The position numbers and the translations under genes are program-made. Shown here piece after piece: positions 36,704 through 39,203 of a stretch of 54,718 nt of DNA; position 1 is the first letter of the stretch; every line of letters starts with the position of its first letter. Under the pieces are notes generated by a model, which saw nothing but the letters and a program-made list of their open reading frames with translations, did no database searches and had not been told where the DNA came from. The stretch is from Clostridia bacterium (GTDB taxonomy: Bacteria > Bacillota > Clostridia > Oscillospirales > CAG-272). The stretch spans positions 1 through 54,718 of the forward strand of contig JAGAPG010000034.1 in assembly GCA_017623355.1 (NCBI GenBank), in the 5' to 3' direction.

Positions 36704-37474
36704 TTAAAGAACAGCCTTTAAAAATTGAATCGTACGTGGATTTTGAGGATTTTCAAATATTTCTTTAGGAGATCCCTCCTCGGCAATATTTCCTCCATCC
36801 ATAAAGAGAACTCTCGTTCCGACCTCTTTAGCAAATCCCATTTCGTGAGTAACTATTACCATAGTCATTCCTTCGTCAGCAAGATCCTTTATAAGATCAA
36901 GCACCTCGCCAACCATTTCAGGATCGAGTGCCGAGGTAGGCTCGTCAAAAAGCATAACCTTCGGGTTCATAGCAAGCGCTCTTACTATAGCGATACGTTG
37001 CTTTTGTCCGCCGGACAATGTAGACGGATACACATCAGCCTTATCCTCAAGTCCGATACGGCGAAGAAGTGCCATGGCATTTTCGCGACATTCCTCGATA
37101 AATTGCTTTTTTGTTTTGCCTTCTTTAATTGCTTTTTTTGTATAGATCGTTACAGGTGCGAGCATTATATTCTGCAAAACTGTCTTATTATTAAAAAGAT
37201 TGAATTGTTGGAATACCATACCCATATTCTGACGGTGAATATTTATATCAACCTTAGGATCGGCAATGTTTTCATTTTCAAAAATAATTTCGCCTGCCGT
37301 TGGATCCTCAAGGCAGTTAAGACATCTTAAAAACGTACTTTTTCCGCTTCCCGAAGGGCCTATTACAACAACCTTCTCACCTTGATAAATATTTGTTGAA
37401 ATATCATCAAGCACTCTGAGATTTCCAAAGCTTTTAATAAGACCCTTGACTTCTATAAGAGGTTTATTTTCCAT
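36704..37474 (-). CDS. Polar amino acid ABC transporter, ATP-binding protein
   Basis: This GlnQ/HisP-type ATPase has Walker [12 protein letters not shown]-loop [14 protein letters not shown], signature [15 protein letters not shown], Walker [15 protein letters not shown] and switch VTHEMGFA. A 20-residue insertion ([20 protein letters not shown]) after the Q-loop is common in the family. The ATG at 37474 has GGGGG 8 bases upstream and is preferred over a GTG 9 bases earlier. It overlaps the permease gene by 11 bases. It is the last gene of the binding protein-permease-ATPase operon. Confidence 0.93.
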
Positions 37475-38192
37475 TACCAGCACCCCCGTTACGTCTGTCG
37501 CTCTTAGCCAGCTTATTTTCTATTATGTGCAATATTTTTGTAAGTATCATAACTATTACAAGATAGAATATTGCCGCTATAAGTAGCGGGAACAAATATT
37601 CAAACGTTCTCGACTGAACAAGTCCGGGGACCTTTCCGAGGTCCATAATGCCAACGTATCCAACTATTGCCGTTTCCTTTACAAGCGTTATAAACTCATT
37701 GAAAAGAGGCGGCAAGCAGTTTTTAACCGCCTGAGGTATTATTATATGCCACATTGTTTGCCATGTGGACATACCGAGGGAGCGTCCTGCCTCCATCTGT
37801 CCGTCGTCTACGCTTTCAAATCCTGCGCGTGCGATCTCCGCAACATAAGCACCGGAGTTAAGACCGAATGTGATCGCACCTATCATTATCCCGTTATCCC
37901 AAGAAGCGAATACAACGAAATACAATATCATAAGCTGCAAAACAACAGGTGTTCCTCTTATGATAGTTATGTATACATTAGCTATCTTTGATAATATTTT
38001 AAGCTTTCCGGTCTTTTTGTTAAGATAATTTATCATAGCAAAGGCTACGCCTATAACCGTTCCGATAAGTGCCGCTACAATAGCTATGAGTATTGTGTTT
38101 CCAAGTCCCTCAAGATAAAGCTTCCATCTGTCTTGAAGTATAAACGCCTTCTTAAACTTATTAAGAACCGATATATATATTAAATTTTCCAT
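37464..38192 (-). CDS. Polar amino acid ABC transporter, permease
   Basis: The 242-residue protein has five or so membrane helices and the HisM/GlnP-type coupling motif: [20 protein letters not shown] then QAVKNCLPP. The His/Glu/Gln permease signature [18 protein letters not shown] is also present. The first 30 residues are an extra soluble/amphipathic lead. The start is taken at MENLIYIS after GAAAGGGAAT. A single permease gene implies a homodimer in the membrane. It lies 59 bp after the binding-protein gene. Confidence 0.92.
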
Positions 38193-38251
38193 ATTCCCTT
38201 TCAGCAGAAGAAGTGAGAGAGCCAAAGCCCCCTCACTTTTCTTTCAAAAAA

Positions 38252-39154
38252 TTATTCTGCAACCGAGAGCATTGTTTGTGCGGGAAGCTTATCCATAAGG
38301 ATAGCATCTATACGACCGTTTTTAAGATCCGAGAATGCAAGAGCATATTGCTGATATTGCTTAACCTCAGCACCGGGAGCCTTAACAACTACCGTGGTAA
38401 CATTTCCGTCATCATCTTCAACATCATAAGAATATCCTGCATCCTTAGCAGCTGCGCTTATGATAAGGTCACCGCTTGTACCTTGTTGAACACCAACCTT
38501 AAGACCTGCAAGATCCTTAACACTGGAAATGGATTTATCCTTAGCTGAAACTACAACCAATGTCGAGCTGAAGTAGATGTTTGAAAAATCAACAGTGTCC
38601 TTTCTCTCATCGGTGATAGTCAAGCCTGCTGCTCCAACAGCTGTGCCGGAAGCACTGCTTACCATTGTAGGTATCGTATCAAACGCTACGTCCTTAACCT
38701 CAAGCTTTTTGCCCATATTTTTAGCAACCTGGCTCATGATAGCGATATCAACTCCGATTACCTTTTCACCGGACATGAACTCAAAGGGAGCAAAGCCTGA
38801 TTCTGTATAAACAGTAATAACCTCTGTTGCAGAACCGAAGTCCCAAGAAACAGCAAGGTCGCCTGCTACAGGAGCGCTAACGCCCTCAACTCCTGCTTCA
38901 TAGTCAGCAAGCTGTGTGTAATAATCGATATACTTTGTCATTGTGCCGTCCTTAACCCATGCGTCAACAACAGCGTTTACTGCTTCAAGTGTTGCAGTAT
39001 CGCCCTTCTTTACTGCTATACCGAAGTCTTCCTTGATGAGGTCAGTTGCATCAACCGCAACATATTCTGTACCTTCATCATCCGAGCACGATACCATTGC
39101 TACTGTGCAAAAAAGCATAACAAGGCAAAGTGCGAGTGAAATGATTTTTTTCAT
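38252..39154 (-). CDS. Amino-acid-binding lipoprotein with circularly permuted SBP family 3 fold
   Basis: A signal peptide and lipobox (AMVSC, Cys23) make this a lipoprotein. Normal family 3 binding proteins begin with a strand like ITVYTESGFAPFEF and end with FGIAVKKGDTATLEAVN plus a helix ending in GT(Y/I)xKIY. Here the order is swapped. Residues 30-80 are that C-terminal segment (KEDFGIAVKKGD...VKDGTMTKYIDYYT). A linker (86-108) follows, then the usual N-terminal strand at 112, the ITDERKDTVDFS block (180-191), and the protein stops after RIDAILMDKLPAQTML, exactly where the missing C-terminal segment should begin. All pieces of one fold are present once, so a circular permutation is the simplest reading. 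GGAGG precedes the start; a consensus promoter and ArgR-like sites lie upstream. Confidence 0.88.
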   Translation of the reverse strand: MKKIISLALCLVMLFCTVAMVSCSDDEGTEYVAVDATDLIKEDFGIAVKKGDTATLEAVNAVVDAWVKDGTMTKYIDYYTQLADYEAGVEGVSAPVAGDLAVSWDFGSATEVITVYTESGFAPFEFMSGEKVIGVDIAIMSQVAKNMGKKLEVKDVAFDTIPTMVSSASGTAVGAAGLTITDERKDTVDFSNIYFSSTLVVVSAKDKSISSVKDLAGLKVGVQQGTSGDLIISAAAKDAGYSYDVEDDDGNVTTVVVKAPGAEVKQYQQYALAFSDLKNGRIDAILMDKLPAQTMLSVAE

Positions 39155-39203
39155 TTTTTATTCCTCCAAAATTATTAGCGCATTCGCGCCGTAAGATGTT
39201 AAC

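Follow-up and report, generated by a model that had tools for sequence, protein, structure and literature searches.

Our analysis supports the reading of the lipoprotein encoded at 38252..39154 (minus strand) of the window, the whole stretch of 54,718 nucleotides that was analysed, as one family 3 solute-binding fold that has been circularly permuted in nature. The support comes from its sequence, from the same segment order in many independent assemblies and from an AlphaFold2 model whose A-B part matches solved proteins. Segments are named after classical members of the family (PF00497, SBP_bac_3; GlnH, ArtJ, AncQR of 4zv1): A extends from the N-terminus as far as the first inter-lobe strand, lobe 2 makes up B, and C comprises the return strand and the last helix. 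Family 3 proteins follow the linear order A-B-C, whereas that of the window follows C-A-B and is therefore classed as a circularly permuted derivative of SBP_bac_3, not as a classical member. The gene (300 residues and a stop codon; identified from the open reading frame, its translation, PF00497 and the permuted blocks against 4zv1) is preceded by a likely ribosome-binding site, GGAGG (39163..39167, minus strand, read from the sequence), 8 bases upstream of the ATG. On the same strand, the translation opens with a signal peptide and lipobox (residues 1-23, with Cys23; 39086..39154). Segment C comes next (residues 31-81, 38912..39064; delimited by the 4zv1 alignment and the C profile) and consists of a strand, an inter-lobe strand and a helix, which are C-terminal in classical members. 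The stretch between segments C and A (residues 82-111, 38822..38911) is a linker from the former C-terminus to the former N-terminus. Segment A (residues 112-206, 38537..38821; PF00497, A profile and conserved columns) corresponds to the N-terminal part of classical members as far as the first inter-lobe strand and carries the conserved Arg184. Segment B (residues 207-300, 38255..38536; B profile, alignment with the classical L034, L036 and L038, and conserved columns) is lobe 2, with the conserved Thr226 and Asp288. The coordinates that the earlier note gave for these parts were correct to within a few residues, but its linker of 25 residues has to be lengthened to about 30, as C ends near residue 81 and lobe 1 starts near residue 112.

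PF00497 matched the protein with 81.7 bits, above the curated cut-off of 26.4, and the match was limited to residues 113-245, corresponding to profile positions 1-98 of 132. When PDB sequences were searched with phmmer, the window protein aligned to AncQR (4zv1) in three blocks of permuted order: query 113-241 to chain 12-141 (78.9 bits), query 256-292 to chain 135-171 (16.9 bits) and query 40-76 to chain 191-227 (15.5 bits). Profiles built from classical sequences only located C at 41-81 (31 bits), A at 114-207 (107 bits) and B at 218-296 (47 bits), residues being numbered here in a frame begun one residue early, and they found each segment once. These scores, in the order C-A-B, ruled out chance similarity. 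Identical orders were obtained with a first set of segment profiles that had permuted sequences among their seeds. In an alignment with the classical Bacilli relatives L034, L036 and L038, the window protein stops where their C part continues. The earlier note had proposed a permuted single fold with the C part ahead of lobe 1 and each element present once; the first point is borne out by the 4zv1 blocks, the classical-only profiles and the independent assemblies described below, and the second by the classical-only profiles.

A match to the window protein was found in 26 of the 29 genomes of the genus, its own included. A full-length gene, 66-73% identical, was present in 9 of the 28 other genomes, always in the order CAB, as were the named records L032 and L033, the former coinciding in position with the gene copy of G025, a genome among these nine. 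The classical-only profiles identified all three rotations in the genus, some of them as neighbouring genes: besides CAB, the ABC genes L051, L053, L054 and L061 and the BCA genes L046, L058, L059 and L062. Neighbouring pairs of different rotation were BCA-CAB (L046), CAB-ABC (L054) and CAB-BCA (L059). A permease and an ATPase followed downstream in nearly all loci, the exceptions being contig ends. The raw orders were CAB 88, ABC 32, BCA 9, CA 4 and A 1, overlapping loci included. They reduced to 109 distinct complete proteins, window included (CAB 74, ABC 26, BCA 9), numbers which are not frequencies because the proteins were mostly sought with the window protein itself. On the tree, two CAB forms, L065 and L068, are placed near the classical L002 and L069. 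Several BCA matches had been reported to contain internal stops; this was dismissed, as the frames read intact. Four loci, L098-L101, contain frames of 532-563 residues; tandem duplication was rejected for these, which by eye are a CAB protein fused to a permease. Likewise L165:1453-2982 (510 residues) appears by eye to be a BCA binding domain fused to a permease. L066:885-1868 and L067:1581-2606, in which the first classical profiles saw only C and A, look BCA-like by eye, belong to a more distant subfamily and, again by eye, have an insertion in lobe 1.

The frequency of permuted genes was estimated by a census of 39 genomes of the order, 36 of which had a PF00497 match at an E value of 1e-8 or better. 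Every matched frame of fewer than 420 residues, 72 in total with those of the window and L002 included, was read with profiles retrained on classical segments; longer frames were left out. We counted 58 ABC, 9 BCA and 5 CAB genes, so that 14 of the 72 single-domain genes were permuted (13 of 70 once the window's genome is set aside), and the linear profile covers many such proteins only in part. Five of the nine BCA genes (L332, L333, L334 twice and L335) had weaker B or C scores, of 8 to 24 bits. Outside the order, at least 15 of 109 genomes drawn from the class carried a permuted gene (9 CAB, 6 BCA), a lower bound since at most the best 30 loci per search were read. A search of the phylum (119 genomes) yielded 28 newly read loci, of which two were permuted, L223 (BCA) and L221; the other 26 were classical, indicating that the method does not label everything permuted. 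In L221:1480-2301 the profiles read CAB with a short B; by eye the cut falls inside lobe 2, giving the end of lobe 2, C, A and the start of lobe 2, so that L221 looks like a further cut point.

The AlphaFold2 model of the window protein was built from 11 rows, of which 8 are fragments, and reached a pLDDT of 81.3 and a pTM of 0.74, against 70.5 and 0.61 for a first model based on 6 rows. It places strands at 31-35, 42-45 and 47-49, followed by two helices, 53-69 and 71-86. Foldseek superposed the model on 4zv1 with an rmsd of 2.5 over 191 columns and a TM-score of 0.65 by target length, the aligned part being A and B alone, not C. Among 265 distinct proteins, 32 columns favour one shared residue in at least 70% of rows in each of the three rotations, and in a few of these columns the window protein itself has a different residue. 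Where rows have a letter in the Arg184 column, it is Arg in 93, 98 and 90% of ABC, CAB and BCA rows, respectively; the corresponding figures for Asp in the Asp288 column are 96, 100 and 90%. We take Arg184 and Asp288 to be conserved ligand contacts of family 3 binding proteins, and the alignment shows these likely contact positions to be retained in every rotation. The join from C to A measures 20-33 residues in CAB (94 proteins) and 21-34 in BCA (10th-90th percentile). Under a loose rule, which asks for a Cys that lies before the first segment and is preceded by Ala, Gly, Ser or Cys, a lipobox cysteine was present in 128 of the 129 open frames of order ABC, CAB or BCA (overlapping loci kept); its median distance to the first segment is 15 residues in ABC, 15 in CAB and 6 in BCA.

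These data bear on several other ways of reading the gene. Segment C might be a small domain of its own, acquired from another gene, whose likeness to the classical C-terminus is convergent or due to chance; its block is weak when taken alone against 4zv1 (15.5 bits), and the C profile scores only 6 bits in the CAB relative L147. However, with the classical-only C profile the window protein scores 31 bits and the other CAB proteins listed score 14-48 bits, the complementary segment is absent after lobe 2, and in six segment C columns (window residues 42, 44, 50, 55, 60 and 70) the favoured residue is shared by all three rotations. Moreover, the curated cystine-binding model PRK11260 aligns residues 27-154 of the BCA relative L163 to its positions 139-264 of 266. 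A separate domain at residues 31-81 is thus unlikely, and its derivation from another gene we hold to be very improbable. Segment C could also be exchanged with a neighbouring binding protein or, in a domain-swapped dimer, with another molecule, the permutation then serving oligomerisation rather than a monomer. Tandem binding-protein genes of different rotation would provide the partners in some genomes, but the C-to-A linker of the 94 CAB proteins appears to have the length needed to close the fold in a single chain, and segment C is modelled with confidence when one chain is folded alone (pLDDT 81-94 for blocks of residues 31-90), so that we give such an exchange little credit. Lastly, the source is an incomplete draft assembly (76.9% complete, 39 contigs), in which parts of two genes could have been joined by an error of assembly or binning. 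The CAB genes of 66-73% identity in the nine other genomes rule out an assembly error, and intact frames of similar length with the same order occur in many independent assemblies, where the earlier note had proposed to check the reading frame; the probability left to an artefact is negligible.

The window lipoprotein gene is followed by a gene for a polar amino acid type ABC transporter permease (37464..38225, minus strand; PF00528 and TIGR01726) and then by one for a GlnQ-like ABC transporter ATPase (36704..37483, minus strand; PF00005 and NCBIfam). The permease frame has a TTG start, with an in-frame ATG 33 bases further in, and scored 60.9 bits against TIGR01726, the three-TM domain of amino-acid-type permeases (cut-off 42.2). 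The best NCBIfam match of the ATPase was the GlnQ model, with 312 bits, under its cut-off of 379. The window protein has its segments, lobes, conserved columns and gene setting in common with family 3 proteins, and we consider it highly probable that it is the permuted receptor of an amino-acid importer, of a fold re-cut more than once, likely via fused tandem copies. The protein would be tethered to the membrane and serve an amino-acid-type ABC importer; its two-lobed trap would close on an amino acid and hand the ligand to the neighbouring permease, as in classical members. The linker joins the old termini, and the new termini correspond to the second crossing of the chain between the lobes. 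Membrane attachment would then lie at a different point of the fold than in classical members, a displacement that follows from the topology. The permuted order is inherited within a lineage, and the tree tests described below indicate that related bacteria have re-cut this fold on more than one occasion. We infer the ligand class, the retained transport, the effect of the tether and the route of origin. The permutation could equally be a neutral by-product of tandem duplication, devoid of functional effect, a view compatible with the receptor just described and to which we assign even chances. In CAB and BCA proteins the chain is cut where one lobe borders the other, plausibly at tolerant places, and different rotations precede the same kind of permease and ATPase. 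No point against neutrality is decisive; selection on the tether would also predict recurrence and long retention.

The number of origins was addressed by phylogeny. Six changes of order were needed on the tree of the 109 proteins. Approximately unbiased (AU) tests rejected a single clade for CAB (p 4.9e-7), for BCA (p 0.014) and for CAB and BCA together (p 1.6e-8), with the proviso that they presume groups named before the tree is seen and that the trees contain long branches. When two outlying groups were removed from CAB, a single clade was still rejected if BCA was kept outside (p 0.0147), but not if 8 BCA proteins were nested inside (p 0.554). The two large CAB groups may accordingly share an origin, with a later change from CAB to BCA, and in view of this p value we do not claim a separate origin for the CAB group of the window with respect to the other large one. 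A FastTree of 265 proteins required 18 changes, branches supported at 95 or above forcing at least 9 for ABC, at least 7 for CAB and at least 4 for BCA; this tree also has long branches, and its single placements are unsure. A tree of segment A alone gave 22 changes, with supported branches forcing 5, 4 and 4 for ABC, CAB and BCA, and adds little as it has few columns. Taken as phylogenetic evidence, the tests indicate more than one origin of the permuted order.

Protein engineers make common use of circular permutation, and natural cases are, to our knowledge, mostly single events. In the ligand-binding domain of ionotropic glutamate receptors, the chain is interrupted by an inserted channel after the first inter-lobe strand, approximately where the BCA termini lie, and this without permutation. 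The earlier note knew of no described family with the order found here. For family 3 this agrees with the titles and abstracts retrieved from the open PubMed Central literature (preprints not covered), none of which describes a natural permutation of such a protein, but a permuted precedent exists in another class of binding proteins. According to the report on TpMglB-2 (Tp0684) of Treponema pallidum (PMC4990184), this protein is a permuted Type I sugar-binding lipoprotein of an ABC importer, as established by its crystal structure; it forms with its relatives, found in Gram-positive gut bacteria, a 'Type Ic' or 'Cluster Bc', and its authors raised tethering as a possible reason for the permutation. 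Like the window protein, TpMglB-2 is a naturally permuted, membrane-tethered binding lipoprotein, but it has the Type I (Cluster B) sugar-binding fold, for which one permutation is described (PMC4990184), whereas the proteins studied here are of family 3, occur in several orders and have more than one apparent origin. The window protein does not fall into Type I (Cluster B): its listed matches are family 3 proteins. What is new here is the family, the repeated events and the several cut points. One fold occurs in three rotations, with an apparent further cut, in related bacteria, next to comparable transporter genes and with its likely ligand contacts kept. With such a set one can ask of naturally evolved proteins where the chain of a two-lobed receptor may be broken and whether a shift of the tether alters transport.

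The most likely route to the permuted orders would be the fusion of tandem copies followed by the loss of their outer parts. The top solved match of the CAB profile was GlnPQ (6h30), over chain 187-395, from SBD1 into SBD2: its two tandem family 3 domains contain C-A-B across their junction, although each domain is itself classical. The joints of tandem genes, and those of the arrays L336-L338, also contain other orders; together with the CAB match over the GlnPQ junction, this would fit a fusion of copies and loss of outer parts. Possible intermediates are neighbouring genes of different rotation, permease-fused arrays and the SBD1-SBD2 junction of GlnPQ. The arrays comprise four (L336:617-4288), two (L337:1058-3301) and three (L338:933-4040) binding units ahead of a permease domain; they begin with B-C and finish with A, and can be read either as repeated BCA modules or as a series of classical modules in which the initial BC pairs with the final A. 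A bolder scheme, which we put forward tentatively and regard as rather doubtful, is that the family 3 fold behaves in Clostridia as a ring repeatedly re-cut, that BC-(ABC)n-A permease arrays are the source of single CAB and BCA receptors, that in these arrays one domain may be completed by the initial BC together with the final A, and that the position of the tether is selected. We also observed a long frame with three binding units, by eye beginning with B (L263:1-2295), a single BCA gene adjoining a two-unit BCA-BCA frame cut by the end of the locus (L256:3-2355) and a tandem of three classical binding-protein genes (L308:947-4033).
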